Made by a program: the position numbers and the translations under genes. A DNA stretch of 64,000 nucleotides from Candidatus Poribacteria bacterium (GTDB taxonomy: Bacteria; Poribacteria; WGA-4E; WGA-3G): positions 186,280 through 250,279 of the forward strand of contig JAPPFM010000058.1 of NCBI GenBank assembly GCA_028821605.1, read 5' to 3'. This document shows positions 28,801 through 46,593 of the stretch, piece by piece (position 1 is the first letter of the stretch; every line of letters starts with the position of its first letter). The notes under the pieces were generated by a model. It searched no databases and was not told the DNA's origin. It was given only the letters and a program-made list of their open reading frames with translations.

Positions 28801-31521
28801 ATGGCAATAGGCAGAATAAAAACATGGAACGATGAAAGGGGCACAGGCTGGATTGAGAATAATGCAGGAGGAGACAATGTTTTCTTGCACCATTCGGAGG
28901 TTTCTCCAGCGGATAGAAAGCTCCTCGCTAATGGAACACTTGTTGAATTTGACATACAAAATTCAAAACATGCCCCCGGAAGACTTGATGCACATAATTT
29001 TCGTTTGTCCGAATCGCCGGATGAAGAGAACTCCAACACTCCTATAGCACAAAAAGTCCTAGAGTCCGAACCGGCAACTCACTTCCACAATCCATACACC
29101 TTTGTTTCTACACCTCCGCGTGAAAAGGCAATAAAACACGGTGGGTTTGCCGGTGATTACGATCCACTGAAAAATGACCTTGACCATGCATCCCTCAAAT
29201 CAAATCTGTGGACTGGACACATTCCAATCAAGCTGACTACAGTTACTCCCTTAGTTTTGCTTAAAGGTGATGGCGAGGATTGTCCAACAGACATACACCA
29301 AATCTACGATGTCCTCGACTATTTGCCAGAAACCTCCTTGCGTGGTATGCTCCGCAGCGCGTATGAGGTGGTGACGAACTCGCGCTATAATTGTTTCGGT
29401 AACGAGCATCAAGAAAGACTTGCATATCGCATGGACTCGCGGGATGCGCCGCAGCTTATTCCAGCAACTATTAAAAATGGCGATGAATCCGGGCAATTAG
29501 TCGCACAGTTGTGCACAGGCACTAGTGTTCCCACAGAGGGCGGCCCCAAAAAAGATGGAACCGATGAAGAGGGTGCAATGTATGCTGCTATGTTTGATCC
29601 CTATGATACAAAACTTTATACAGTATACGATTCAAAATACACGCCCCGAACAGGTCATGAGGTGTGGGCACAAATCATTCTTTGTCAACATAGATACAAA
29701 AATTACCGGTACTGGAAAGCACTTAAGGTTTGGTGGACAGATCAACATCCTGATAAACCTACCGAGCAAGAATTAATAGAAATACCTGAATCAGAAGAAT
29801 GGACCTCTCTATATACAGACATCAATAATCCGATTGAGCGAGTTGTCAAAGGGCATGTTTTGATTACGAATAAAAATATAAAAGGCAAACATGATGAGCG
29901 TATTTTCTTCTATGACAATCCTGATTTGAATCTATCTGACAAAGATGTAACCCATCTCAAAACGGATTGGGAAAAACTCATCAAGAACTATCGCGATGCA
30001 CATTCCGAAAAGGAATTATTCAAGCGTCAAAATGCAAATAACCAACCTTGGAAATGGACAGGGAACGATCCTGGTAAAACGGCTTGGTCACCGCACTTGT
30101 ATCAAGACAGTAAACACCGGTCTATTTGGCATAATAATGATCCACATGGGCGTGTCACTGATCATGACGCAATTGAATTGAAGCATGGTGATTTGGTATA
30201 TGCCCGTTGCGAGTTCAAGAATGGAAAGATTTCAAAGATTACGCACCTTTTACCTGTCTCTATCTCCCGCGTGTTATACGATCTAAGTCCACGAGATCGT
30301 CTGCCCTATTCTCTGAGACCCGCGAAACGAAGATCCGAATTATCTCCCGCGGACCGCTTGTTCGGATGGGTTGCCCAACCTGATGGCGAAGATTCAGGCC
30401 AAGACAATCAAGCAAAAGCGCAGGGTCAAGAGCGTGATCCTTACAAGGGGCGTATACGAGTCATCTGTGACGATGGCCCACGTCCTAATATCATCAAACG
30501 TTTTGAGGATGACCAGACCCTACCTTTGACGATTCTCGGACAACCGAAACCTGAACAATCAAGATTCTACGTTGCCAAAGATGACATAGGCACACCTGAA
30601 AAAGATAATATTAGGAAGAAGGATGCTGGCTATAGCAAAGGCAAGGGTTTACGAGGGCGCAAGCAATACTGGCACCATAAAGGATTGGAAGCTCATAAGC
30701 AGGCAGTCAAACCTGCGCGAGATTATTGGAAAGCGACCGTTGAGGATCGAACACAGGTCAAGCGTGATGGTCGGTACCAGGAATACCGCCGTCCGGATGT
30801 ACGTCCGGATAAAGATAATCAAAGTGGTTGGCAGCAAAAGGATTCGCAAAACCGTTCAATCACAGGTTGGATCAAACCTGGCACCGAATTTAAGGTATTC
30901 GTGTATGTGCAGAATCTACAAGACGCGGAAATCGGTGCGTTGCTTTGGTTATTGTCTCGCCCTGAAGGTCATTACTTTAGGATCGGATACGGCAAACCTT
31001 TAGGATTTGGTAGTATGAGAATGGAAATTGATTGTCCTGACAAACAACCCTTACCAATCGGCACCCATGAGGATTGGAAAAAATATTACACTACTTTTGA
31101 CACCTCTCCGCTTGAAAAACTGACGTTGAATAATGAACAGCAGGCCAACTGTCTCCAAAAATTTCAAGAGAGTATGTTGAAAGCATACGGTGAGGATTCA
31201 GATAATGATACTACAGAAGAGAATGGTGGCGAAGGTAAAACATCTGATTTGACATCTTTTAATCAACTTGCAAGCGTCCAATCCAGTTTCGTGAATACAC
31301 CTGAAGATCTGGAACAAAGTTTTGAAAACTTGTCCTTTATCAAAGAATTTCTACAAATACTAAAAGGACCAGAAACAGACTTACCCATTCACTATCCACG
31401 GACAGATCAGAAACAAGATCCGGAAGGCAAGAATTTTGAGTGGTTTAGAGATAACGAAAGTAGAGGTAAACTTGCACTTCCAGCGGCTACGGATGATAAA
31501 GGGATCCCTTACAAGCCATAA
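28801..31521 (+). CDS. Type III-D Cas7 with insertion (TIGR03986 family), fused to an N-terminal cold-shock domain
   Basis: 906 residues. Residues 1-68 read as a cold-shock domain: GRIKTWNDERGTGWIE (RNP1-like G-T-G-W-I at 14-18) and NVFLHHSEV (RNP2-like at 27-31). After a linker, residue 97 on matches the TIGR03986 RAMP opening NPYTFVSTPPREKAI, then SLRGMLRSAYE, the later SPADRLFGWVAQ, and a glycine-rich loop GYGKPLGFGSMRM near residue 733. In III-Dv-type complexes this protein is the Cas7 subunit with a large insertion in the crRNA-bound backbone. Weak Shine-Dalgarno AAGG before the ATG. It heads the operon, 36 bases before the CARF gene. The added cold-shock domain could bind crRNA, target RNA or transcripts. 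Confidence 0.85.
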   Translation: MAIGRIKTWNDERGTGWIENNAGGDNVFLHHSEVSPADRKLLANGTLVEFDIQNSKHAPGRLDAHNFRLSESPDEENSNTPIAQKVLESEPATHFHNPYTFVSTPPREKAIKHGGFAGDYDPLKNDLDHASLKSNLWTGHIPIKLTTVTPLVLLKGDGEDCPTDIHQIYDVLDYLPETSLRGMLRSAYEVVTNSRYNCFGNEHQERLAYRMDSRDAPQLIPATIKNGDESGQLVAQLCTGTSVPTEGGPKKDGTDEEGAMYAAMFDPYDTKLYTVYDSKYTPRTGHEVWAQIILCQHRYKNYRYWKALKVWWTDQHPDKPTEQELIEIPESEEWTSLYTDINNPIERVVKGHVLITNKNIKGKHDERIFFYDNPDLNLSDKDVTHLKTDWEKLIKNYRDAHSEKELFKRQNANNQPWKWTGNDPGKTAWSPHLYQDSKHRSIWHNNDPHGRVTDHDAIELKHGDLVYARCEFKNGKISKITHLLPVSISRVLYDLSPRDRLPYSLRPAKRRSELSPADRLFGWVAQPDGEDSGQDNQAKAQGQERDPYKGRIRVICDDGPRPNIIKRFEDDQTLPLTILGQPKPEQSRFYVAKDDIGTPEKDNIRKKDAGYSKGKGLRGRKQYWHHKGLEAHKQAVKPARDYWKATVEDRTQVKRDGRYQEYRRPDVRPDKDNQSGWQQKDSQNRSITGWIKPGTEFKVFVYVQNLQDAEIGALLWLLSRPEGHYFRIGYGKPLGFGSMRMEIDCPDKQPLPIGTHEDWKKYYTTFDTSPLEKLTLNNEQQANCLQKFQESMLKAYGEDSDNDTTEENGGEGKTSDLTSFNQLASVQSSFVNTPEDLEQSFENLSFIKEFLQILKGPETDLPIHYPRTDQKQDPEGKNFEWFRDNESRGKLALPAATDDKGIPYKP

Positions 31522-31557
31522 GACGTGGTGTTCATCATTTACATATAAGGAGGAGTT

Positions 31558-32991
31558 ATGGCCAGAAAAATACATCTCGTTTTGACAGTCGGAAAGAACC
31601 CCCTACCTGTTTGGGTGGCTTGGGATCGTTTAACAAATCATTGGACAAATGAAGGACACGAAGTTGCTGTCCAATTCGTGCACACGCCAGGGTCAGAAGA
31701 CGAAAAGGAGCGTCTGAAGGAATATTGTACAACACATGGAGTAACTGTCCGTGATGACATTGAAGTGGACGCTCGTAGTCCCGATAGGGCAGATATTGAA
31801 AATCAAATTCGTAAAGCCTTGCCCCCAGATTTTACTGATCTTCACATTCACTACACCGGCGGTACCCAGGCGATGGGCGTTGCAACGGTTTATGCCATGA
31901 TGGTAGTTCAACATAATTTACTCGGACAGCAGACAATTGCGGTAGATGCGTCGTACTTAGATCCGGGACGCGGCATTCTGCCAGCAACCAGTTCTTCACC
32001 AGCAATTGTCAGTTGGAACGACGACTTATTAATAGCCGATACCCGTGTGAACATTACTCCTAATCTCAAGGAAATTGCCACACTCAACGGATTCCGAGTA
32101 GGACCTTTTGATTACTATAAAATTGACGGAACGGCTGACAAGCGTTTGGCCCCTCAAATCCCCACGGATGAAAGATTGCAAGCTGGTGCAGTGGTGCTTG
32201 ATAATTATCGTGGGATAGTTGAGCAGGAATTTAGAGACAACTTTCCTAAAGGTAAACCCTGGTCGGACACTTTCCATAAGAATCCTGACGAGCCTGAGAG
32301 TGATGATTTTTTTCACCCTAATGATGGTGGGTGTTTCGTACTTCAGGCTTCTGATTCCAAATGGGAAAATAACATACTACCGGCTGTCAATGAAGCATAT
32401 CCATCTTGTCCATGGAATTGCTCAAAAAAGGAGTTGCCTTACCCTGCTGCGGGAGGTGCTGCGGATCAGCAAAGAGACCTTGAAGAGATGGATAAGTTTT
32501 TCACCAGTCACTGGCTTGAGTACGCTGCGTATGCTGCCTTTAAGAATGTCCTTAGAAGTATCGAAGCTAGGAGCCCGGAACGCGCAAACTTTGAACTCTA
32601 CCATAATGTTTACGTGACACCATATTTGAACGGTGTCGCATCTCGAGACTTTGAACTTGATGTCGTAGCAGTGTTGGGTTACCAAGTAGTTGTTGTCTCG
32701 TGTAGCATAACGTCCAATAAATCGGATATTAAACAGAAAGCTATGGAAGTATATCATCGAGCGAAGCAGCTCGGTGGTGATGCAGCACGCGCTGTGGTCC
32801 TGTGTGTTGCATCCTCTCAAGATGCTAGACTAGTCGAAGATGAATTGAAGGACGAAACTGGAATCGAGCGGCCTTTACAAGTTTGGGGAAGACAACAAGC
32901 AAGAGGCGGCGGATGGGGACCTGTTCCTAATATGGATAACCTATGTGCCAAGTTCCAGAGTCTTTGCCAGGATGACCTACATTGGGCTTGA
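31558..32991 (+). CDS. CARF-domain CRISPR ancillary protein, Card1/Can2-like, with altered nuclease motif
   Basis: 477 residues. The N-terminal CARF Rossmann-like half carries HIHYTGGTQAMGVATV at residues 96-111, the ligand-loop motif of Card1/DUF1887-type proteins that bind cyclic tetra-adenylate. The C-terminal half follows the PD-(D/E)XK plan: HWLEYAAYAAF near 318, ELDV with Asp 368, then the next strand VVVVSCSI at 377-384, where the expected E-x-K reads S381-C382-S383. A Lys-rich stretch follows at 388-394. Strong GGAGG precedes the ATG. Lying between two effector genes, it is probably switched on by Cas10 cyclic oligoadenylate, but its cleavage chemistry may be lost or altered. Confidence 0.85.
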   Translation: MARKIHLVLTVGKNPLPVWVAWDRLTNHWTNEGHEVAVQFVHTPGSEDEKERLKEYCTTHGVTVRDDIEVDARSPDRADIENQIRKALPPDFTDLHIHYTGGTQAMGVATVYAMMVVQHNLLGQQTIAVDASYLDPGRGILPATSSSPAIVSWNDDLLIADTRVNITPNLKEIATLNGFRVGPFDYYKIDGTADKRLAPQIPTDERLQAGAVVLDNYRGIVEQEFRDNFPKGKPWSDTFHKNPDEPESDDFFHPNDGGCFVLQASDSKWENNILPAVNEAYPSCPWNCSKKELPYPAAGGAADQQRDLEEMDKFFTSHWLEYAAYAAFKNVLRSIEARSPERANFELYHNVYVTPYLNGVASRDFELDVVAVLGYQVVVVSCSITSNKSDIKQKAMEVYHRAKQLGGDAARAVVLCVASSQDARLVEDELKDETGIERPLQVWGRQQARGGGWGPVPNMDNLCAKFQSLCQDDLHWA

Positions 32992-33009
32992 ATAACTAAG
33001 GAGATACTC

Positions 33010-34662
33010 ATGTCAACGTCTTGCTATACAGGTCAGTGCGTTGTGGTCTTCGGCACCGCGAGTCTTCAGCAATACATTTTTCAGAGTAACCGCCTCAAAG
33101 AGAATATTGGTGCGTCCTATCTTGCCAAACACTGGCTCGGTGAGGCACTGGTTACAGTTACAGGAGCTGATGCAACCAAGTGGAAAAAGTACGAGAAAAA
33201 TCCTTGGAGAGACCAACCTGAAAATTCTATGGCCAAAGACAAACCTATCAATGTTATTTACATTGGTGGTGGGAACGCTGCGTTGCTATGCGAAAATAAG
33301 TGTATTGCCAAAAAAGCAGTCAAAAAGTGGAGCCGCAAAGTGCTTAAGAATGCCCCCGGACTCCGGGTAGTTGTCGGTTATGGTGAAGTTTGCGAAGACA
33401 AATCGCTGGCGGAGGCTTATCGTGCTGGATTAGATGCGTTAAATCATTGTGAAGAAGCACTCCCATTTGGCAGCACGTTGCATAGTTTACCCGTCGTTCG
33501 CCCATGCATTAGTACCGGACTTCCAGCGAGTGAGTCTCGGACTGAACCAGATGAGGGAAATCAATGGATATCACAATCAGCAGCGAGTAAACGCGATCAA
33601 GTGAGTTTCCGGGGAGAGCCCGGAGCCGCCCAAGAGCACATTAAGGATAAATTTCCATCGGTTTTGGAACAAACAGAGCGTTTGCCAAAACTAAATCGTT
33701 TTGCCATAAAACTTGATGAGGAATTGGGAGGTCGTAAAGGAGAATCGCACATTGCTGTCGTTCATGCCGACGGTAACGGGATGGGTGATCTACTCAATCA
33801 AGTGATAGATAAAGAAGATCAGAGAGACAATGAATTTTTACATAACCTTCGGGCATTTTCAGCCTCTACGTCATATCTCTCCCATAAAGCCTTAGAGGAT
33901 ACTTTATTATACTTCAAGGATTTTCTACCATTGAAGAAATCGCTAAATAATCCTGACTATATATTTCCGCTTCGACCAATCGTGTTCGGCGGTGACGACT
34001 TGACTTTTGTCTGTGATGGCCGCGTGGGATTACATCTGACTGCTTATTATCTGCAGCAATTTGCCAACGGTAAAATCAACTTCTGCGGTGATAAAATATC
34101 TGTTGATGCCTGTGCGGGGGTTGCTATTGTGCATACAAAGTTTCCGTTTGCGCGGGCTTACAGTTTTGCGGACGATCTTTGTGGAAAGGCTAAGTTACAC
34201 CGCCGTTATGAAGCCAATTTAAAAGGAAGTTGGCTGGAATTTCAGATTATTCAAGAAGGTGCTACGCGATCCATTACCGATCTCAGAGAAACACAATACC
34301 ACACTGGTAAAGGACAAATACTGCCTCAGCGTCCCTATGAAGTGCCGACAGCATGGGAAGATTTCGTCAAGCTCTTGCAAAAGTTTAAGACAGAATGGCC
34401 CCGCAGTCGAGCCAAAGGACTTTTGCAAGTACTCACGCAAGGACCTACCGCGACCAAACATTTCGTTAGTGGTGCAAAGTGGAATGAGGACGGAATTCCA
34501 AGTGTTGAAAATACCCCTGACATTGTCTGTACTACCGGTTGGACCAGTGAAACCCCCGGAGCCACTACACCCTATTTCGACCCCCTTGAAGCACTTGACT
34601 TTTATCTGGAAGAGCTATTTCCAAAGGAGAAGGACAATAATAAAAAGGAGAACGGAGAATGA
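33010..34662 (+). CDS. cas10: Cas10, HD-less, with intact GGDD cyclase motif
   Basis: 550 residues. The chain opens directly with the first palm-like segment (VVVFGTASLQQYIFQSNRLKENIGASYLA); there is no N-terminal HD nuclease domain, so ssDNA cleavage is not expected. The first palm has a degenerate GGGNA at 87-91. The second palm has HADGNGMGD at 252-260 and the catalytic GGDD at 327-330, the metal-binding site that makes cyclic oligoadenylate from ATP on target binding. The C-terminal part is helical. It lies 18 bases after the CARF gene, its likely receiver, and its stop overlaps the start of the next gene (ATGA). Confidence 0.92.
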   Translation: MSTSCYTGQCVVVFGTASLQQYIFQSNRLKENIGASYLAKHWLGEALVTVTGADATKWKKYEKNPWRDQPENSMAKDKPINVIYIGGGNAALLCENKCIAKKAVKKWSRKVLKNAPGLRVVVGYGEVCEDKSLAEAYRAGLDALNHCEEALPFGSTLHSLPVVRPCISTGLPASESRTEPDEGNQWISQSAASKRDQVSFRGEPGAAQEHIKDKFPSVLEQTERLPKLNRFAIKLDEELGGRKGESHIAVVHADGNGMGDLLNQVIDKEDQRDNEFLHNLRAFSASTSYLSHKALEDTLLYFKDFLPLKKSLNNPDYIFPLRPIVFGGDDLTFVCDGRVGLHLTAYYLQQFANGKINFCGDKISVDACAGVAIVHTKFPFARAYSFADDLCGKAKLHRRYEANLKGSWLEFQIIQEGATRSITDLRETQYHTGKGQILPQRPYEVPTAWEDFVKLLQKFKTEWPRSRAKGLLQVLTQGPTATKHFVSGAKWNEDGIPSVENTPDIVCTTGWTSETPGATTPYFDPLEALDFYLEELFPKEKDNNKKENGE

Positions 34663-37154
34663 CAGATTATTTTTTGGAAATTACGCTGCAATCCCCACTA
34701 ACGTCCTCAGCTGGTGAAGGACGCGTTGGGTGGGTTGACCGAGATATTGCTTTTGACGATCTGGGGTTACCTATTCTTCCCGGAAGACGACTCAAAGGAT
34801 TATGGCGCGAAGCCTATCAAGACGTTGTCGATGCGTGGAAACAGTGTGATGAAGAATTAATACCAATACCAGCGGAAGACATTTTTGGTAAAGCAGGCGA
34901 AAAGCCTGATGATAGTAAATCCGGAATCCATCTCGGAAATGCTGAACTACACGAACCCAAAGCATCATCTTTGAAAGAATGGTTAAAATATTTACAGCAA
35001 CCGGGTGTTCAATCAAATCTTCATCCAGACGACGTTGTTCAACACTTTGCCGATGTACGATCACAAACGGCAATGGATCGGGAAACAGGGTCTGCCCTTG
35101 AAAATACCTTCCGTCTTACCCGGACCCTAAAAGCAGGTTGGGTATTTTGGGCACCGGTGCACTTTGTTGTACCGCCTGATGACGCGCTGCTCGCTGCGTT
35201 GGTTTTAGGAGCGGCTGCATTACAATACATGGGAACAGCGCGAACCCGTGGGCTCGGAAAGGTCCGTTGTCGTTTCATCTGTGGTTTGACGGAAAAAGTT
35301 TTGCATAGCGACACCCTCCCATCAATAGACAATGCAAGTACATCTCAATTGCCTCAAACATCAGAAACCGAAGATGTTGGAGTTGTAAATGAAGTAGAAG
35401 ATGTGAGACACATCCGTGAACAGACCCAATCATCAGAAAATCAAACAACTGATGCTCACTGTTCCTGTTGTTCAACATTTTCTCATTTACTACGCTATCG
35501 GTTGACTTTGAAAGAACCTGTGGTAATACCAGTGGTAGATGGCGACCCAAATACCATCGTAACCCGGCAAGACATCCCCGGAAGCCATATATGGGGAGTT
35601 GCTGCTTGGCACTACTTGCGTCAACCAAACCACAAACCGGCAGATGATGCATTTCGTCGTATCTTTCTTGATGGACATTTGCGTTTCTTGACAGCTTATC
35701 CAGAAGCAATTGATCCTGAGCAAAACCAAGAACTTACACGTACAATTCCTATACCTCACTCCATACGTAAATTCAAGGAAGATGCAAATAGCCTTGAGGA
35801 AGAGAAACTCGTAGATTTAGTAGAATCACCATCAACTGAGGAAGAAAAGAAAAAACCAAAAAAGCGATTGGAACGCCGCTACGGAATGATTTTGCAAGGG
35901 GACTTGAAGACGCGATTCGTCAAAACAGAACGTAATTACCACCATGCCCGCGCTGGTGACCGCCGCAAAGGACGCGCCCTTGAAAATGACGGTAACCTCT
36001 TTAGGTATGAAGCCATTCAAGCCAACCAGCCGTTTCAAGGTGCTGTTCTGGGTTCAAAAGATAATTTGGTGAAACTAAAAGAATGGTTATCAGGAGAATA
36101 CCCAATAAAAATTGGTAGATCGCGCAGTGCACAGTATGGAGAAACAGAATTTGAATGGATTGATGAGATACCCAAGGCGTTGAGTGATGTCTTTGCTGAA
36201 TGGAATGCATTCGTTGATCGAGAAGATTACGAGCCGGAGGACGAGCCACCGGTCCTTTCTGATGATCGTTTAATCCTTACAACCCTATCTCCACTACTGG
36301 CTGTCAACGATAACGGGCATCCGGATGCGCGTTTTCCCCTACGCGAATTAGCCAAAATGCTGGGAATAAAGGCATGTGAACTTAAACTATCATGCAGTTA
36401 CACCCGGACAGAGTTGATTAGTGGGTACCACAGCCACCTACGTTTACCGCACCACCAGTGGCAGGCCATCGCTGCTGGCAGCGTTTTTGTGTTTTGTGTA
36501 AAATCCTCATTCGACACAAAACGACTTTTGAAATTAGAACATAATGGCTTGGGATTGCGTAAGAACGAAGGTTTTGGACGGCTTGCAGTCAATCGTCAAG
36601 ATACGCTTGAGTTACAAAAAGAAACCCAACTTAACGACCCTAAATGTGACGTGCCAAATGGACAGATACCGCATGAAATTGAAAATATTCTCAAAGGTGT
36701 CGTGTTAAGATGTTGTTTAGCTGAGATACAGTCCCTTGCCATGCGTGCAGCCAGTACAATAATTGATCAGGCACGAGAGAATAGGCGGTTACCAAGCAAC
36801 GCACTCCTCGGACGATTCCGTTTGTTTCTCCAATGGGAAAACCTTAAGGAAAGTTCACCGGAATTGCTTAAATTAGGAAAGGAAAAACTACCAAATCATC
36901 AGATTGATATGCTTAATCACGGTATACCAGGATTACAAAACAGACTCACACTATTTGATTTATTTAAGCATATTTGGACTGAACGTGAGACTATAACTCG
37001 CCAATTGGCAAATAATCACGTTAAAGACTTTGTTGAATCTCGCTACAGCGACACTCAGGAAACCATAGTAAAGAAGTTGGTGGAAGCCAAAAGTGATGAA
37101 ATGTACAAAGTATTCTTCAATCATCTATTGACAGCATTACACCGTGCGTCATAA
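34659..37154 (+). CDS. Cas7-Cas5(Csx10)-Cas11-like fusion subunit of a type III-D effector
   Basis: 831 residues in three parts. Residues 1-210 are a Cas7-type RAMP: LQSPLTSSAGEGRV, PILPGRRLKGLWREA, and glycine-rich GTARTRGLGKV at 192-201, with D27/D29 at the place of the Csm3 catalytic Asp. After an acidic linker, residues 278 to about 640 are Csx10/Cas5-like: YRLTLKEPVVIPVV, DIPGSHIWGVAAW, and GLRKNEGFGRLAV. The remaining 170 or so residues are all-helical (EIENILKGVVLRCCLAEIQS onward), as expected for a Cas11-like small subunit. This order matches the Cas7-5-11 protein of III-Dv systems. It overlaps cas10 by four bases, implying translational coupling. Confidence 0.85.
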   Translation: MTDYFLEITLQSPLTSSAGEGRVGWVDRDIAFDDLGLPILPGRRLKGLWREAYQDVVDAWKQCDEELIPIPAEDIFGKAGEKPDDSKSGIHLGNAELHEPKASSLKEWLKYLQQPGVQSNLHPDDVVQHFADVRSQTAMDRETGSALENTFRLTRTLKAGWVFWAPVHFVVPPDDALLAALVLGAAALQYMGTARTRGLGKVRCRFICGLTEKVLHSDTLPSIDNASTSQLPQTSETEDVGVVNEVEDVRHIREQTQSSENQTTDAHCSCCSTFSHLLRYRLTLKEPVVIPVVDGDPNTIVTRQDIPGSHIWGVAAWHYLRQPNHKPADDAFRRIFLDGHLRFLTAYPEAIDPEQNQELTRTIPIPHSIRKFKEDANSLEEEKLVDLVESPSTEEEKKKPKKRLERRYGMILQGDLKTRFVKTERNYHHARAGDRRKGRALENDGNLFRYEAIQANQPFQGAVLGSKDNLVKLKEWLSGEYPIKIGRSRSAQYGETEFEWIDEIPKALSDVFAEWNAFVDREDYEPEDEPPVLSDDRLILTTLSPLLAVNDNGHPDARFPLRELAKMLGIKACELKLSCSYTRTELISGYHSHLRLPHHQWQAIAAGSVFVFCVKSSFDTKRLLKLEHNGLGLRKNEGFGRLAVNRQDTLELQKETQLNDPKCDVPNGQIPHEIENILKGVVLRCCLAEIQSLAMRAASTIIDQARENRRLPSNALLGRFRLFLQWENLKESSPELLKLGKEKLPNHQIDMLNHGIPGLQNRLTLFDLFKHIWTERETITRQLANNHVKDFVESRYSDTQETIVKKLVEAKSDEMYKVFFNHLLTALHRAS

Positions 37155-37190
37155 CGCAAGCCAACATCCACAGAATAAGGAGGCAACCCT

Positions 37191-38714
37191 ATGGAAAACA
37201 CGACTACCACCTCCACATCTACAGATAATGATGTTGTTGTGCGTCGGTTATATGCACGTGGCAAATGGAAACTTGATAGCGTAGCACACTTCGGTAGCCA
37301 TGAAACCGGTGTTGCGGACATGTGTCTCCTACAAGATGCTAATGGAAAACCCTTTATCCCAGGGGCATCCGTCGCCGGTGCCGCGCGAAGTTTCCTCGCT
37401 CGGAAGTGTTTAATTTGGACACAATATAAAGAAGGACTTGCAACAGAACCACGAGAACTTAAAGATTTCTTTGGTGGCGCGGATAAAGAGGATACCATGA
37501 GTCCCTTAATCGTTTCGGATGCCGCATGTGTATCGGAGAAAGTGAACAGAACAATCCGCGATGGTGTTAGCATAAATATAAAGTCGGGCACTGCAAAAAC
37601 AGGAGCGAAATATGATGTGGAGGTCGCTGAACGTGGAACTGAGTTTGAATTGTGTTTGGTATGTATTATACGTAGTGGAGATGACATAGACGGTATCAAA
37701 GACGGAGCAACAAAACCCAATTTAGAGGACATGTTTAGCGCACTGCTAAGAGCGTTTCAAGATGGCGATATCCGCCTGGGCGCGCGCACTCGGCGCGGTT
37801 ACGGGCGCGGCAAAGTAGAATCTTGGGAGATACGCGATTTGCAGATGGACAATCAAGAGGATGTCATGGCGTGGCTACGCGATGATCCGTGGTCCCAACC
37901 TAATAGCGACTTAGAACCAGAACCATTACAAACCGACCAGAGATGCTACTTCCGCATTGAGGCGGACTTTGAACTCCGCTCATCACTGTTAATCCGGAGT
38001 GTATCTGGAGAACCAGAAGACCCTGATATGGTCCATTTACAGTCTGATGGCAAACCTGTTATCCCCGGCACCTCATTTGCGGGTGCGTTCCGACAGCGCG
38101 CGACGCTAATCGCAAACACAATTGGCTTCCCTGAAAAAGCAGTGGAAAAGATGTTTGGGTTTGTCCATAAAAAAAATAGCAACAACTCACAGGAACCCAC
38201 TTCGCAGGCAAGCCGAGTATTAATTGAGGAACGTCTGGTAAAGAATGTAGAAATGCGATGGCAGCATCGCGTTGCGATTGATCGTTTTACCGGTGGCAGT
38301 TTACAAAGTGCCTTGTTTGATGAGAAACCGGTTTATCCCCTCTCACTCAAAGAACCCGAGCCGAATATACGATTGAGACTTGCATTAGAAGAATCAGAAA
38401 AGGCAGAGATAGGTTTGCTACTCCTCACATTACGTGACTTCTGGTATGGGCACACCGCCATCGGTGGAGAGACAAGCAACGGACGCGGTACACTCCAAGG
38501 CATCAAAGCGCAATTGAAATATAAATATTCAGACTCCCCTGTTCCTAAAGTTTGGAGATTGTCGCACGACAACGATAACAAACGTATGACAATTGAAAGT
38601 GATGATGACGGATTCCTCCAATCCTGCGTTACAGATGCACAAAACTACTCTAATCGCCCTTCAGGATCGCGGCGACCTAAGAAGAATGGCGGGGAGGATT
38701 CCGATGCCGAATAG
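37191..38714 (+). CDS. Double Cas7 (Cas7-2x) subunit of a type III-D effector
   Basis: 507 residues holding two Csm3-like RAMP domains, about 18-215 and 252-450. Each has a catalytic-type Asp (D43 in TGVADMCLL; D279 or D277 in EDPDMVHL), an IPG-A/T-S-x-AGA-x-R block, a matching thumb segment (RDGVSINIKSGTA and HRVAIDRFTGGS) and a glycine-rich end (TRRGYGRGKVE; GGETSNGRGTL). In a type III backbone each Cas7 cleaves target RNA at six-base steps. The tandem fusion is the arrangement of III-Dv Cas7-2x. AAGGAGG lies just upstream of the ATG. It overlaps csx19 by 11 bases. Confidence 0.88.
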   Translation: MENTTTTSTSTDNDVVVRRLYARGKWKLDSVAHFGSHETGVADMCLLQDANGKPFIPGASVAGAARSFLARKCLIWTQYKEGLATEPRELKDFFGGADKEDTMSPLIVSDAACVSEKVNRTIRDGVSINIKSGTAKTGAKYDVEVAERGTEFELCLVCIIRSGDDIDGIKDGATKPNLEDMFSALLRAFQDGDIRLGARTRRGYGRGKVESWEIRDLQMDNQEDVMAWLRDDPWSQPNSDLEPEPLQTDQRCYFRIEADFELRSSLLIRSVSGEPEDPDMVHLQSDGKPVIPGTSFAGAFRQRATLIANTIGFPEKAVEKMFGFVHKKNSNNSQEPTSQASRVLIEERLVKNVEMRWQHRVAIDRFTGGSLQSALFDEKPVYPLSLKEPEPNIRLRLALEESEKAEIGLLLLTLRDFWYGHTAIGGETSNGRGTLQGIKAQLKYKYSDSPVPKVWRLSHDNDNKRMTIESDDDGFLQSCVTDAQNYSNRPSGSRRPKKNGGEDSDAE

Positions 38715-39279
38715 AACGTCTATAGAACTCAATAAGTCGTGGATTTGTGAACGCTTATGTCATGTAACCAACATAGAAACTAAAAAAGTTGCGTGGGTTT
38801 TGGTGCAGGAACCAGGGTTTATCGGATTTGGTGTAGCGTCTCCAAATGAAATCTGCTGGCCCCCATATCTTAAAAAATTGGACTGGGAATTGGTGAGCGA
38901 TCTACGACTGTTCGGTGAAAAAGGGGAATGGCACATTTGGCGCGATTGGGATGGAAAGCATTATGCCCGGTTGCTGGAAGTGAAAAATATCAACGACGCA
39001 CTCACAGAATACCACGTCCTGTGGGGCACCGACGTTAAATGCACTCAGACACACTGGGTAAAATTGCGAGAAGAGCGAGGGGCAGAAATCTGGATACCAC
39101 CGTTGAAGGATGTAAAATTGACAGAAAAGGACTTGCCCCTACGGCTAGAACTCAAACAAATAGTAGACTATGATCCTAAATACCATTTGGCAGGGATTGT
39201 TGATGCCGCCTTTGTAAGTCTTGTTCGCAAGTCCTGCAAAGAACCATTGTTACCAGATCTTTCCCTACTCTGCTCATAG
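38704..39279 (+). CDS. csx19: Csx19 (TIGR03984 family), type III-D subunit
   Basis: 191 residues from the ATG at 38704, chosen because GGGGAGG lies seven bases upstream; the frame is open further back only within the preceding gene. The block LRLFGEKGEWHIWRDWDGKHYARLLEV, the YHVLWGTDV strand and the late LRLELKQIVDYDP fit TIGR03984/Csx19, a type III-D-specific protein that packs against Cas10. Its presence, with Csx10-like Cas5, places the locus in subtype III-D. Stop and the start of cas6 are two bases apart. Confidence 0.82.
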   Translation: MPNRTSIELNKSWICERLCHVTNIETKKVAWVLVQEPGFIGFGVASPNEICWPPYLKKLDWELVSDLRLFGEKGEWHIWRDWDGKHYARLLEVKNINDALTEYHVLWGTDVKCTQTHWVKLREERGAEIWIPPLKDVKLTEKDLPLRLELKQIVDYDPKYHLAGIVDAAFVSLVRKSCKEPLLPDLSLLCS

Positions 39280-39281
39280 CC

Positions 39282-40250
39282 ATGCTCCAAAACTTCCGCT
39301 TCGCACGCTACCGATTCACCTACACCGTCCAAGAACCGCTGAAGATGCCACAACACAAAGGCAACGTCTTCCGCAGCCGATTCGGATACATCCTGCGCCA
39401 TATCGCTTGCAGCGGCGATGAAAACCGATGCGAGACGAGTTGTCAGTCTCCAGAACGGTGTGTGTATTCCAAATGCTTTGAAACACCAGTACCAGACAAT
39501 AGTCCAATGTTACGCGGTCAGCCGTATGCCCCGCATCCCTTCGTCCTTGAACCACCGCGTACCGGGAAATTGGACTATGCACCGGGTGACACGTTCGCTT
39601 GCAACATGGTACTTATCGGCGAGGCAATCAACCTATTGCCGTGGATTGTGCTAACCTTTCAGGAGATGGGTAAGCGACGCATCGGGCTACAAGGCAAACG
39701 CGGGCAGTGTCAACTTGATAAAGTCGAAAGCTTGTCCGCACACGGTCACGACCAAGCACAGACAATCTTCACCGCAGAAACCGAGATGTTGACAGATGAT
39801 GGACTGATTCTCCGGTTTGACGATGTGATGCCCGCTGCGCCCCACGTCATGGACGAGATTGAACTGGCGTTTCTCACACCCACGAGTATCAAGGTCAACG
39901 GGAAGTGGACGAGCAATTTGACGTTTGAACACCTCATCCGTAATCTGCTCCGCCGCATCCGTTTCCTGAGTTATTTCCACTGCGGCAAAGACCTGGACGT
40001 GGATGCCCACGGTTTAATTGCGGCATCTACCTCGGTCGCGCATACCTCTCGCCTGGATTGGCTCAGAAAGGATCGGTATTCTTACCGTGCGGAGAAATCC
40101 GTGCCTATGGGTGGGTTTATCGGGAAAATCCGTTTTTCAGGAAAATTAGAGCCGTTTTTGCCGTTCATCTATCTTGGCGAGTATCTGCACATCGGGCATC
40201 ATACGGCGTTTGGACATGGACAGTATCGTATAAATTGCAATAAATCATAG
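39282..40250 (+). CDS. cas6: Cas6 pre-crRNA endoribonuclease
   Basis: 322 residues with two RAMP-type ferredoxin folds. Landmarks are FRFARYRFTYTVQEPL at the start, KGNVFRSRFGYILRHIACSG, a cysteine-rich stretch C-x-T-x-C...C-V-Y-S-K-C at about 47-62 usual in this Cas6 branch, and the C-terminal glycine-rich LHIGHHTAFGHGQYRI. Cas6 cuts the repeat RNA at the base of its hairpin, leaving an 8-base ATTGAAAC-type 5' handle. The His-rich glycine loop and upstream His residues are candidate catalytic groups. It ends the effector operon. Confidence 0.9.
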   Translation: MLQNFRFARYRFTYTVQEPLKMPQHKGNVFRSRFGYILRHIACSGDENRCETSCQSPERCVYSKCFETPVPDNSPMLRGQPYAPHPFVLEPPRTGKLDYAPGDTFACNMVLIGEAINLLPWIVLTFQEMGKRRIGLQGKRGQCQLDKVESLSAHGHDQAQTIFTAETEMLTDDGLILRFDDVMPAAPHVMDEIELAFLTPTSIKVNGKWTSNLTFEHLIRNLLRRIRFLSYFHCGKDLDVDAHGLIAASTSVAHTSRLDWLRKDRYSYRAEKSVPMGGFIGKIRFSGKLEPFLPFIYLGEYLHIGHHTAFGHGQYRINCNKS

Positions 40251-40589: not shown

Positions 40590-40619
40590 TCATTGCCCGT
40601 TCACGTAGAGGTTCATTTC

Positions 40620-40895
40620 ATGTTCTATGTTATCTCTTACGATATTCCAGACGACAAGCGACGCAACCAACTTGCCAAAGTGCTCAAAGGGTTCGGCACC
40701 CGCGTCCAATACAGCGTATTTGAAGCGCATCTGAGTCGGACACAGTACGCGGAGCTCAAGCGCGCGGTTACCCATGTTATCAATCTTTCCGAAGACTCGG
40801 TTCGATACTACGTGTTGTGTGGTGCCTGTACTGGACGCATTGAAGTACCCGCCATCGGTGAAATAACATCGGAGCCCAAGACAATTGTTGTTTAA
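40620..40895 (+). CDS. cas2: Cas2
   Basis: 91 residues from the ATG at 40620, chosen because the family start MFYVISYDIPDDKRRNQLAK falls there and AGAGG lies upstream. The ferredoxin-like fold is complete: first strand with the conserved Asp (YDIPDD), KVLKGFGTRVQYSVFEAHL, then the strand SVRYYVLCGACT. Cas2 dimers bridge Cas1 dimers in the spacer-integration complex. It is separated from cas1 by 4.7 kb of other sequence, which is unusual. Confidence 0.93.
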   Translation: MFYVISYDIPDDKRRNQLAKVLKGFGTRVQYSVFEAHLSRTQYAELKRAVTHVINLSEDSVRYYVLCGACTGRIEVPAIGEITSEPKTIVV

Positions 40896-41007: not shown

Positions 41008-41481
41008 ATGAGAAAACTTTCTGAAGTCGGCATCCGAACAGAAGCTTCAAAACTCGTAAGTTTACTTCAGGCTTCTGAGGATCCCGATGAATGGGCACAT
41101 ATATCAACAGAACTTATTCCAATACTAATAGCATATTGGGATGAACATCCACATAGTGCGATGGAGATGTTAGAGATAACTGTAAACAACCTGTCTATAG
41201 AGTTAGCAAAACCACTCGTCCGTGAAGTTATATTGGCTTGGAGGAACAAACCTGACTACAATCCCGATGCAGGAGGCAATGCGGACCATTGCTATTTATC
41301 AGCACTTATTCTATCGGATAACTTTGACCTTGCAGAGTACCCATGGGTAGAAAGAGTGCTACCTAAGACTTTGAACAAGGAGCTAAACTACAAAAGGGAG
41401 ATGCGAGATTATGATCGTAAATTCGCTCTGCTTAAAACTGTTCAATATGCATCTCGGGAATCCTCAAGACTTCCAGAGTAA
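41008..41481 (+). CDS. Hypothetical helical protein downstream of cas2
   Basis: 157 residues, predicted mostly helical with several Trp/Asp/Glu-rich turns (SLLQASEDPDEWAHISTEL, PILIAYWDEHPHSAMEML, ILAWRNKPDYNPDAGGN). There is no signal peptide, membrane span or known catalytic motif. A ribosome-binding site (TTAGGAGAAAGAAT) precedes the ATG. I do not recognise it. Its position inside the CRISPR island, on the same strand, makes it a candidate accessory gene but proves nothing. Confidence 0.6.
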   Translation: MRKLSEVGIRTEASKLVSLLQASEDPDEWAHISTELIPILIAYWDEHPHSAMEMLEITVNNLSIELAKPLVREVILAWRNKPDYNPDAGGNADHCYLSALILSDNFDLAEYPWVERVLPKTLNKELNYKREMRDYDRKFALLKTVQYASRESSRLPE

Positions 41482-42150: not shown

Positions 42151-43782
42151 TCATCCAACCTTCTCCCTCGCCTCCAAGACCTTATCAACAACAGTTTTGA
42201 CATCGGCTTCATCGACAAACGGAGATAGGATATATGATTTCAAAGCGACGATCGGTTCTTGGTATGTTGTCTGTCGATAGCATTCGGTTGTGGAAATGAC
42301 CACACCTCTACCCTCCATCGCCTCCGAATGCACGTAGTCAAAGATTTTGCGGTTGTATTCGTTATGCGCCCGCAAACTCTCGCGATACGCGGCATCCTCA
42401 AATTCTTGGCGTTTGATTGAGAAGGTGTCCACCGCCTCCGGATAAGCACGGAAAAGGGTGACGGTTCCAAAGTTGTCTCGGTTCAGCACGGTGGTACCCG
42501 CATGTCCTTCCAGATGTTCCCGCAGGAGTTGTGTCATTTCAACGATGTGTCCGATGATGACTCGTAAGCCTTGTTCCCCGAACAATCGGAGATTCGCAAG
42601 GGCTGCAAGGGGCCCCGTCCCCGCTCTGGAGGTTTCAAGGGTATACATGCCAGGGCGATGTTCCCCGAAGTGATAAAGATACGGCATCTGTTCCGGATGA
42701 CGCTTCACCAAATTGAGATCCTCTCGATTTTTGACGAGGACGAGACTGGAGATATAAGGCGTAAAGCCCGTCTTATGAAAGTCGATCCCGATGGAATCCG
42801 CGAGGGATAGGTGCTGTATACGTCGGCACGCGCCCGCCAAAGCTCGAACGGTACGCGGGCGGAAGTCTAAGGGGTTCCCCTCAAGATCATAGTCGTTAAA
42901 TACCGACCATGCCCATCCGATAACCGCATCGGCGTGAACGTGCGGTCGGTAGTCGAGTTGGAACTCATCAACGAGTGTATCACGTAACGCCACAATGCTC
43001 TCTAAATCGTCCAATCCGAAGGCATCCGTGGTTCCCAATGTCGCAATGATCGCAGCGATCTTTTTCCCGTTTGTGAGTGCTTCCCGAACCGCTTGTTCCA
43101 ATTGGGCGAGGTCGATTTCGTTGTCATCAGTTGTTGGTATTGTAACCAGATTGTTCGTTCCCATGCCGAGCCAACCGACAATGTTCGTTGCACAATAGTG
43201 GCCGGCATCTGATACAAACACAACTGCCTCTTCAGGTGTCCCGTTTTGCATCGTTCCCGGGCACGCCTTTTCTAAACCGAGTTTCACCCCGTAGAGTGTC
43301 GTTCCAGTACCGCCAAAGGTAAACACACCACTTGCCTTTTCCGCGTCATATCCGACCATTTTCGCCGTCATCCCAACGACTTCAACTTCAGCCAATGCCA
43401 CCAAATGACTATATTCATCCCAAGCGATATTAGGGTTGTATAGCGAAGCAATCAGTACACCAATCACACTTGGAATTGTCGTCGGTGGGATAACGTTCTG
43501 TTGTGTCCGAGGATGCCCGAAGATCGTCATCCCTCGGAGGTAACCGATGAGCTCAGCCGTGACATCCTCAACCGAGGACATAGCGTCCGGTAAAGTCGTG
43601 TGCTGTGCCGCATCAAAATCAGCGGAGACAATACTATCGAGCATCGGCAGATGTGTTTTGAGCGCGTCAACCTGGTCCAACGCACGCATGATGGAATGCA
43701 CGAAATAGGAATCATGTATCGGGTCAGATGTAGGTTGAGGGAAGGCAAGTCTAATGTTCTGTAAAATATCGCGGTAGTTCAC
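42151..43782 (-). CDS. PLP-dependent group II decarboxylase (glutamate/aromatic amino acid decarboxylase-like)
   Basis: 543 residues from the GTG at 43782, which has GGAGA ten bases upstream and lies 45 bases inside the likely transcript start. An upstream GTG at 43827 falls on the predicted start itself. Family landmarks are FTFGGTGTTLYGVKLGLEKA, VFVSDAGHYCATNIVGWLG, HADAVIGWAW (PLP-contacting Asp) and the Schiff-base Lys in SIGIDFHKTGFTPY. It should decarboxylate an amino acid in the cytosol; substrate unknown. It is read against the cas genes, between the effector and RT-Cas1 parts, and has its own promoter, so it is probably a passenger. Confidence 0.88.
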   Translation of the reverse strand: MNYRDILQNIRLAFPQPTSDPIHDSYFVHSIMRALDQVDALKTHLPMLDSIVSADFDAAQHTTLPDAMSSVEDVTAELIGYLRGMTIFGHPRTQQNVIPPTTIPSVIGVLIASLYNPNIAWDEYSHLVALAEVEVVGMTAKMVGYDAEKASGVFTFGGTGTTLYGVKLGLEKACPGTMQNGTPEEAVVFVSDAGHYCATNIVGWLGMGTNNLVTIPTTDDNEIDLAQLEQAVREALTNGKKIAAIIATLGTTDAFGLDDLESIVALRDTLVDEFQLDYRPHVHADAVIGWAWSVFNDYDLEGNPLDFRPRTVRALAGACRRIQHLSLADSIGIDFHKTGFTPYISSLVLVKNREDLNLVKRHPEQMPYLYHFGEHRPGMYTLETSRAGTGPLAALANLRLFGEQGLRVIIGHIVEMTQLLREHLEGHAGTTVLNRDNFGTVTLFRAYPEAVDTFSIKRQEFEDAAYRESLRAHNEYNRKIFDYVHSEAMEGRGVVISTTECYRQTTYQEPIVALKSYILSPFVDEADVKTVVDKVLEAREKVG

Positions 43783-43833
43783 GTTTTTTCTGTCTCCATT
43801 ATTAGCATTTAAGTATTGGCTCGGCACGATTGA

Positions 43834-44016: not shown

Positions 44017-45405
44017 ATGCTTGATTACACACCGAGCACGTCTCTCACAACGCAACTCTATCAACCTGAAACATTACATGCCGCCTGGCGAAAAGTCCGC
44101 GCTAACAAAGGCGGACCCGGCAGCGATGGCATTACCATCCAACAGTTTGAGGCAAACCTTACCAAACATCTCCGTCACCTCTCGCGTGAACTCGCGGAAG
44201 AACGCTACTATCCGCTCCCGATTCAAAAGTTCACCATGAAAAAATCAAACGGCAGCACAAGAGAACTCTCTGTGCTGACGCTAAAAGATCGGATTGTTCA
44301 ACGCGCCGTTTGCGATCTCATCTCGCCGATCTATGAAGCCAAATTTCTTGAGTGCAGCTTCGCCTACCGTCCCAATCGCGGGGTGCCACATGCTATAGCA
44401 CAGGTCGCCGCTATCCGGGCAGAAGGGCACGAATGGGTTGTTCATGCGGATATTGAGAAATTCTTTGACAGAATGGATACGCACATTCTGATGCGCTTTC
44501 TCCGAGCATCCCTGAAAGAACCAGCGATCATCCGGCTGATTCAGATGTGGTTAGATATGGGTGGTATTTTGCAACCGCCCAAACTTCCGACGTGGAGCAT
44601 CCATATCGAAAACACAGTCCACCAGATCGGTGGAGGCGTTGAGGACGTGATTAATCAACTCCTGCATCGCACGCCAAATTTTGGGCATTACAACGAACAT
44701 CAAAACGCACTGACAGCAGACGAATGGGAACTTGACGAGTCTGAAATTACGACAAGAACTGGCACCTTGACACAAACCGGAAAGGAGATATTGACGAACT
44801 TAGGGCGAGACGGACTTCTTCTGCTCCTTGCGAATGCCAAACGGTTATGGAAACCTCTCGCCACCAAGCAGCTGCTTATCGTTGCCCCTCTGGTTGTGGC
44901 AGCACTCGCTGCACCGACCGTAGGCAGTCTTGTGAAGGAGCGGATGAGCCGCCCACGGAAAATCGGTATTATACAGGGGTCCCCCCTCTCACCGGTGTTA
45001 GCGAACATCTATCTTCATCCATTTGACAAAGCGATGACGCGAGCAGGCATACGGCTCGTGCGATACGCGGACGACCTGCTCCTCCTCTGCCGAAGCGAAA
45101 GCAGAGCACACCACGCACTTGAATATGCACAAAAACGACTCGCAACACTCAAATTAGAATTGAATCCAAAAAAGACGCAAATCGCACGTTTCAATACAGG
45201 GATTGAATTCCTTGGACACATCTTTGACGCGGATGGGTGTTACCAACCCATCCCCGATTCGCGGACAAGAATCTTGCAGGACCAGATACAGCACGTCCTC
45301 AAGAAAGGAACAACCCAAGTTGCACGCTCTGGACGACATGTAACGCAACACGGCAAAAACATCGCCACCCAGTTCGGTGAACGTTTGAAAAAACGCGATA
45401 AATAA
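44017..45405 (+). CDS. CRISPR-associated reverse transcriptase, unfused, with a long palm insertion
   Basis: 462 residues of the group-II-intron-like RT class. Motifs in order: AWRKVRANKGGPGSDGIT (RT1, about 23-40), YYPLPIQKFTMKKSNG and LTLKDRIVQRAV (RT2), CSFAYRPNRG (RT3), catalytic Asp 145 in HADIEKFFDRMD, GIIQGSPLSPVLANIYL (RT4, 317-333), catalytic YADD at 350-353, and LNPKKTQIARF plus IEFLGHIF at the end. Between Asp 145 and QGSP there are 175 residues instead of roughly 70. The extra 105-125 residues (about 185-310) include a hydrophobic run at 285-304. No maturase or endonuclease domain follows. GCGGAGG precedes the ATG. cas1 is the next gene, implying RNA-templated spacer acquisition. 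Confidence 0.88.
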   Translation: MLDYTPSTSLTTQLYQPETLHAAWRKVRANKGGPGSDGITIQQFEANLTKHLRHLSRELAEERYYPLPIQKFTMKKSNGSTRELSVLTLKDRIVQRAVCDLISPIYEAKFLECSFAYRPNRGVPHAIAQVAAIRAEGHEWVVHADIEKFFDRMDTHILMRFLRASLKEPAIIRLIQMWLDMGGILQPPKLPTWSIHIENTVHQIGGGVEDVINQLLHRTPNFGHYNEHQNALTADEWELDESEITTRTGTLTQTGKEILTNLGRDGLLLLLANAKRLWKPLATKQLLIVAPLVVAALAAPTVGSLVKERMSRPRKIGIIQGSPLSPVLANIYLHPFDKAMTRAGIRLVRYADDLLLLCRSESRAHHALEYAQKRLATLKLELNPKKTQIARFNTGIEFLGHIFDADGCYQPIPDSRTRILQDQIQHVLKKGTTQVARSGRHVTQHGKNIATQFGERLKKRDK

Positions 45406-45600: not shown

Positions 45601-46593
45601 ATGGCAATTCTCTACATCACCCAACAAGGCGCAATGCTCCATAAATCTGGAAACCAGATCATCGTAAAAAAAGAGCGTGAGGTACTCCAAGAAATCCCGA
45701 TTGTCCAACTCGACGAAGTCGTCATCTTCGGCAATGGACACATCACAACCCCAACGATGGGATACTTGCTGAGTAAAAATATCCCGGTCTCCTTCCTCTC
45801 TTCACGCGGAAAATACAAGGGAAAACTTCAACCGCCCTACGCCAAGGACACGCTGATTCGCCAGCAGCAATATGCCGTTGCGTCGGATCCGCCACAGTGC
45901 CTGGAATTAGCGAAATGTTTTGTCCGAGGCAAACTCACAAACGCTATGCGGTTCTGCCAACGGCAACGCACCCAAAATGACGAGGTGAAATCCGCAATAC
46001 TTTCCACGCGTCAAACTTTGGAAAAACTCGAAGGTGCTAAGAATTTGGAATCGCTTCTCGGATACGAAGGCGCAGGTGCCGCCGCGTATTATCAGGCGTT
46101 TCGACAATTTCTGGCACGCGACTGGGGGTTTACCACTCGCCAATTTCGACCGCCACCGGATCCAATTAACGCCATGCTCTCACTCGGCTACACGCTCCTA
46201 CACAACCATGTTTACGCCTTCACCAATGTCGTCGGTTTAGACCCATACTGCGGATATTTCCATCAACCCAAGCATGGACATGCCGCATTGGCATCGGATC
46301 TAATGGAGGAGTTCCGTCAGATTATTGTTGATGGATACGTGCTTTCACTTGTCAACAACAACCGGATTAAACCCAAAGACTTTGAAAAGACCAATAACGG
46401 TATCCGTTTCACCAAAGAAGCGTTGGATCGATTCCTCACTGGCTATTATGGGCGGATGCAGCGGACGTTTCAACACCCCACGCGTAACGAGAAAACCACC
46501 CATCTGCGTTGTATTGAACTTCAGGTGAGGCATCTGGCTCGTGTGATTAGAGGCAAAGAAGCGGTCTATAAACCCTTTCTTGTTCGCGCTTAG
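45601..46593 (+). CDS. cas1: Cas1 integrase
   Basis: 330 residues. The N-terminal beta domain (MAILYITQQGAMLHKSGNQI, then VQLDEVVIFGNGHITTPTM) is followed by the helical catalytic domain. Metal ligands are in place: Glu in LLGYEGAGAAAYYQ (about 160), His in GYFHQPKHGHAALASDLMEEFR (about 225) and the Asp/Glu of ASDLMEEFR. Cas1 with Cas2 inserts spacers at the leader end of the array. A very strong AGGAGGT lies upstream of the ATG. Unlike many type III RT systems, the RT is a separate gene rather than a fusion with Cas1. Confidence 0.95.
   Translation: MAILYITQQGAMLHKSGNQIIVKKEREVLQEIPIVQLDEVVIFGNGHITTPTMGYLLSKNIPVSFLSSRGKYKGKLQPPYAKDTLIRQQQYAVASDPPQCLELAKCFVRGKLTNAMRFCQRQRTQNDEVKSAILSTRQTLEKLEGAKNLESLLGYEGAGAAAYYQAFRQFLARDWGFTTRQFRPPPDPINAMLSLGYTLLHNHVYAFTNVVGLDPYCGYFHQPKHGHAALASDLMEEFRQIIVDGYVLSLVNNNRIKPKDFEKTNNGIRFTKEALDRFLTGYYGRMQRTFQHPTRNEKTTHLRCIELQVRHLARVIRGKEAVYKPFLVRA

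Follow-up and report, generated by a model that had tools for sequence, protein, structure and literature searches.

The CRISPR-associated reverse transcriptase (RT) encoded in the window (the whole 64,000-nucleotide stretch of DNA from a Candidatus Poribacteria bacterium analyzed here) carries a real and conserved insertion of ~122 residues in its palm, between motifs A and B, and in all collections searched this lineage-specific module is restricted to the Poribacterial family of the enzyme. A preliminary description of the locus had claimed an extra palm segment between the catalytic Asp 145 and QGSPLSP, and the distance from D145 to Q320, where the latter motif starts, is indeed 175 residues. 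The baseline of about 70 residues assumed there is too high: of the 66 non-Poribacterial sequences in a 79-RT alignment, 52 have a spacing of 53 (overall range 51–62), which is why the excess amounts to ~122 residues (near residues 187–308). The sequence finding is solid; as for function, we infer docking and/or gating from the position of the insertion, by analogy with the RT3a plug of G2L4 RT and the telomerase IFD.

A lineage-restricted insertion between motifs A and B

The insertion is flanked by the helix that follows motif A (..RLIQMWLDMGG) and the strand entering motif B (RKIGIIQGSPLSP), where insertion-less relatives have a loop of ~10 residues. This motif A–B region is named RT3a in the nomenclature of non-LTR RTs, group II enzymes included (PMC12337344, PMC11014452). 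Both segments quoted in the preliminary description, RTGTLTQTGKEILTNLG and LLIVAPLVVAALAAP, are present in the RT. A genome scan recovered 12 full-length Poribacterial relatives with 68–87% identity, and the spacing in these and the window RT, re-read by reference to the DNA, is 175 (eight sequences), 176 (four) or 185 (one). In a whole-phylum search, the RT was full-length in 15 of 84 Poribacterial genomes, including assemblies of only one or three contigs, with no internal stop codon among the full-length matches, and the insertion sits at the identical point in all 15 aligned homologues. Because it is common to every full-length homologue and no stops interrupt it, chance, frameshift and misassembly are excluded as its source. 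Its GC content is similar to that of the rest of the RT gene and of the neighboring genes.

Comparison with other enzymes shows a separate inserted module that is absent from the other CRISPR RTs and the group II RTs tested; ten other CRISPR-associated RTs, from cyanobacterial and proteobacterial plasmids, have a spacing of 53 or 46. An insertion-only profile run against the whole phylum returned the same 15 genomes and one borderline match (G046, E 0.009, 17.6 bits) that we judged to be noise. The insertion had no Pfam match up to E 5, only chance-level sequence matches in the PDB (best E 1.1), a single chance-level match in the rest of its own genome (E 0.39), and none in phage and plasmid records or in viral contigs. 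The genome-wide scan used short query peptides and could therefore miss distant carriers in other phyla. We found no description of the insertion in the open-access literature, where absence is no proof. The RTs with the insertion are monophyletic (100/100) in a tree of 52 sequences, and their clade, within limited sampling, joins Poribacterial and cyanobacterial RT-Cas1 fusions (94/84), away from group II intron RTs. Since the carriers form a single clade, a single gain of the insertion on the stem of this particular Poribacterial lineage is probable.

Table 1. Features of the RT gene, its insertion and the surrounding CRISPR locus, in window coordinates
Feature	Position	Strand	Basis
Type III-D effector genes: Cas7 with N-terminal cold-shock domain, Csx1/CARF4 nuclease, Cas10d, Csx10, Cas7, Csx19, Cas6	28801..40250	+	profiles
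cas2	40593..40895	+	CRISPR_Cas2 E 2e-24
CRISPR-associated RT, 462 aa, not Cas1-fused, without canonical thumb	44017..45405	+	ORF; RVT_1; PADLOC profile; tree
Catalytic Asp145, motif A, VHADIEKFFD	44449..44451	+	invariant in 79/79 aligned RTs
RT3a insertion, residues ~187-312, ~122 residues beyond relatives	44575..44952	+	alignment to insertion-less CRISPR RTs; spacing 175 vs 53
Insertion part A, residues 192-217; predicted helices 192-203, 208-216	44590..44667	+	AF2, low confidence; entropy; dN/dS 0.15
Acidic fast-evolving linker, residues 218-249, length varies	44668..44763	+	alignment; charge; dN/dS
Insertion part B helix, residues 250-277 (..LTNLGRDGLLLLLANAKRL)	44764..44847	+	entropy; dN/dS
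Hydrophobic run, residues ~285-303 (QLLIVAPLVVAALAAPTVG)	44869..44925	+	KD19 2.15; biological-scale cost +3.1
Basic distal end, residues 304-317 (SLVKERMSRPRKIG), running into motif B	44926..44967	+	alignment; entropy
Motif B / RT4, QGSPLSP, residues 320-326	44974..44994	+	ORF translation; alignment
YADD catalytic motif, residues 350-353	45064..45075	+	ORF translation; alignment
C-terminal helices 414-437 and 444-458, basic, replacing thumb	45256..45390	+	AF2 pLDDT ~70-80; net charge
cas1	45601..46593	+	Cas_Cas1 E 1e-95; directly 3' of RT in 11/12 loci
CRISPR array, 37-nt repeat, ~31 copies	47252..~49560	.	repeat detection

The two structured parts of the insertion are under purifying selection, with dN/dS of ~0.15 pooled and 0.05–0.11 in close pairs, against 0.08–0.09 and 0.06–0.10 for the core; residues 253–312 give 0.05 in close pairs and 0.15 pooled. 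The only loose stretch lies in the linker (dN/dS 0.38 over residues 226–252), which has a net charge of -6 across residues 220–249, while the insertion as a whole has a net charge of -1. Invariant residues among the 15 homologues include W193, H196, E198, G205, G207, E209 and L216 in part A; N261, G263, R264, G266 and LLLAN 269–273 in part B; prolines P291 and P300 in the hydrophobic run; and V306, K307 and P313–I316 (with P313-R314-K315) in the basic distal end. With 13 close homologues as input, AF2 reached a pLDDT of 35; addition of 66 diverse RTs resolved the core (mostly >90) and a C-terminus of two helices, and left the insertion, which departs from the core at the RT3a loop, as a mostly helical prediction of low confidence (29–47). 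A test for a conserved face on the predicted insertion helices (entropy moment) gave nothing significant (p 0.23–0.99), and therefore speaks for neither burial nor lipid exposure of a helix.

The amphipathic pattern of the insertion had also been said to recur at the C-terminus of the RT. By eye, QTGKEILTNLG in the insertion region does resemble QHGKNIATQFG in the C-terminal region, but the likeness is visual only; the family profiles align no better than chance (hhalign probability 0.2%, E 0.28), and homology between the two as an internal repeat was rejected.

The enzyme and its CRISPR locus

The RT reading frame is uninterrupted, with complete catalytic motifs (D145, QGSPLSP and YADD) and matches to RVT_1 in Pfam (E 2e-34) and to the PADLOC profile PDLC01136 'RT' (E 6e-98), ahead of the RT-Cas1 profile Cas1_IIIb in second place. 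Its catalytic aspartates, its neighborhood of cas1 and array, and its position in the tree all place it among the CRISPR-associated group-II-like RTs. Membership in the group II intron RTs themselves was ruled out by the 52-sequence tree. Among the structural matches listed for the AF2 model, those closest to the core are group II intron RTs: 6ar1, the GsI-IIC RT (Z 31.9, rmsd 6.3 over 331 residues), and 5hhk (Z 29.2, rmsd 2.2 over 269 residues). Judged from its sequence, the RT is an active-looking enzyme, and it probably serves sponge-associated Poribacteria in recording past infections.

Profiles for Csx10, Csx19, Cas10d and III-D Cas7, together with a CARF4/Csx1 nuclease, identify the locus in the window as type III-D. 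In 11 of the 12 related loci, the RT lies immediately upstream of cas1 in the same orientation, and in the twelfth the contig ends; the CRISPR array is found downstream of cas1 in nine of those 11 and upstream in one. Cas1 proteins of the same clade, with 83–86% identity, also occur in some genomes without the RT. Two of these loci (L048 and L051) have non-RT sequence upstream of cas1, and a third (L061) retains a degraded piece of the 5' end of the RT gene at 668–787, ahead of an intact cas1, an apparent loss of the RT with retention of Cas1. The RT-minus calls are unsure for L053, which starts near a contig end, and for L050, which contains a run of N. In the Cas1 tree, RT-minus and RT-plus sequences are interspersed, with limited support. 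The intact Cas1 found without an RT indicates that Cas1 does not need it, and the RT appears dispensable, an accessory whose loss leaves Cas1 in place.

Several other genes of the window were recorded along the way. The III-D Cas7-like RAMP protein at 28801–31521 (+; 906 aa) has an N-terminal cold-shock domain (CSD, E 3e-9), a fusion that is unusual to our knowledge. A CARF4/Csx1-type PDDEXK protein of the type III locus is encoded at 31558–32991 (+), and is likely a cyclic-oligoadenylate-activated nuclease. A 157-aa reading frame at 41008–41481 (+) has a ~90% identical counterpart in locus L009, and no Pfam, NCBIfam or PADLOC match. At 42151–43827 (-) lies a PLP-dependent decarboxylase, which is found near RT/cas1 in seven of the 12 related loci in varying orientation with 77–93% identity, and could be a linked gene or a mere chromosomal neighbor.

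Possible roles of the insertion

We tentatively propose, as a possibility that falls somewhat short of an even chance, that RT3a has grown into a mainly helical, Poribacteria-specific module that would dock the RT on Cas1-Cas2 and gate the active site with its distal end. On this proposal, the RT3a loop between the two palm motifs would have enlarged into a helical module that would attach the unfused RT to Cas1-Cas2, its partners in adaptation, and so replace the covalent tether of RT-Cas1 fusions; the conserved basic distal end (VKER..RPRKIG), continuous with motif B, would control access to the active site, such that captured nucleic acid might be copied or tailed only in the docked state. 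The hydrophobic helix would then form the buried core or an interface of the module and not a membrane span. We counted in favor the spacing of 175–185 in the 13 Poribacterial RTs, the conservation of the insertion, the linkage of RT and cas1, and the RT-Cas1 fusions as nearest neighbors in the tree; crosstalk between RT and Cas1 active sites has been demonstrated for Cas6-RT-Cas1 (PMC8102632). Against it we counted the low pLDDT of the insertion, and the intact same-clade Cas1 without an RT in some genomes, in one of them beside the decayed RT remnant. The main weakness of a docking role is that unfused cyanobacterial CRISPR RTs manage without the insertion, and docking thus does not require it. 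A stronger form, in which a new recruitment-and-gating domain at the position of the telomerase IFD would keep the RT shut until docked on the Cas1-Cas2 integrase and so couple reverse transcription to spacer integration without covalent fusion, we regard as rather doubtful.

The enzyme has no thumb or X domain, and its two basic C-terminal helices (net charge +8 over residues 411–462) raise the alternative that these and the helical insertion together grip the template-primer as a thumb substitute. Cas6-RT-Cas1 is likewise known to be thumb-less (PMC8102632), and the telomerase IFD-TRAP also traps primer-template (PMC10055720). Taken whole, however, the insertion is not basic, and other thumb-less CRISPR RTs do without one, which leaves such a grip doubtful, slightly more so than the strong form of docking above. 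Somewhat less likely again is that the insertion acts solely as an autoinhibitory plug, occupying the active site of the unbound RT until substrate expels it, as in G2L4 RT, with no docking involved. The site directly before RT4, the basic distal end and the hydrophobic helix would all suit a plug, and AlphaFold likewise did not predict the one in G2L4 RT (PMC12337344), but the insertion is more than 10 times longer than the 9-aa insertion there and we saw no sequence similarity between the two.

The preliminary description had suggested membrane anchoring, and the hydrophobic helix, perhaps with amphipathic ones, might keep the RT at the membrane, for example at a site of phage nucleic-acid entry. 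The run is hydrophobic in all homologues, and its best 19-residue Kyte-Doolittle window of 2.15 exceeds those of six soluble proteins of the window (0.91–1.61), though a transporter transmembrane helix and three secreted-protein signal sequences reach 2.52–2.69. On the biological scale, applied without position dependence and thus giving rough values, the summed cost is +3.1 for the RT (+1.6 to +3.1 across homologues), between the -2.0 to -3.5 of the transmembrane and signal segments and the +5 to +8 of the soluble proteins, mainly because of the two invariant prolines. With an odd number of spans between motifs A and B, the catalytic aspartates would end up on opposite sides of the membrane, and a single span would split the palm, so that only a surface or re-entrant mode would be possible. 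A true transmembrane anchor is therefore unlikely, and membrane association of any kind is improbable; a docking or on/off module is the more likely explanation. That the insertion is functionless or misannotated (a selfish element, intein or assembly error) is highly improbable, for although it is confined to one lineage and its linker evolves fast, every full-length orthologue retains it, its structured parts are under strong purifying selection, no intein-like junction residues were seen by eye, its GC content resembles that of the neighboring genes, and it has no stops.

Comparison with known systems

Among the CRISPR-associated RTs, whose clades include RT-Cas1 fusions and unfused cyanobacterial enzymes (Toro et al. 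2018, PMC6013744), the Poribacterial RT shares the thumb-less group-II-like core, the adjacent or fused cas1 and the tree grouping, but it is unfused and has its ~122 extra residues, found in none of the 10 sampled. The Thiomicrospira Cas6-RT-Cas1-Cas2 complex (7KFT/7KFU; PMC8102632) also contains a thumb-less CRISPR RT domain, a helix of which is in communication with the active site of Cas1, and the Poribacterial RT aligns with it in two stretches flanking the insertion; that RT, however, is fused to Cas6 and Cas1 and has ~10 residues at this point. 7KFT is not among the structural matches listed for the AF2 model, which carries no weight as to the fold. As a conserved orphan palm module in one RT lineage, with natural RT-minus sister loci, the insertion offers a clean handle on unfused CRISPR RTs.

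The telomerase IFD lies between motifs A and B', the same two motifs as the Poribacterial insertion. IFD-TRAP is likewise a large insertion within the RT domain, with roles in recruitment of TERT through TPP1 and in holding the primer-template (PMC10055720), but it is eukaryotic and its TRAP is largely beta, and we take the likeness as an analogy of position with no claim of homology. G2L4 RT has a short helical RT3a plug of 21 aa, with a 9-aa insertion just before RT4, that shuts the active site until substrate binds (PMC12337344). In both enzymes RT3a is extended at its distal end, ahead of the QG motif of RT4, the helices here being low-confidence predictions; G2L4 RT differs in the size of its plug, in working in DNA repair and in having YIDD, a mark of its family, where the Poribacterial RT has YADD. 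If the docking and gating proposed here hold, the Poribacterial module would be a further case, after G2L4 RT and telomerase, for RT3a as a hot spot of regulatory insertions.
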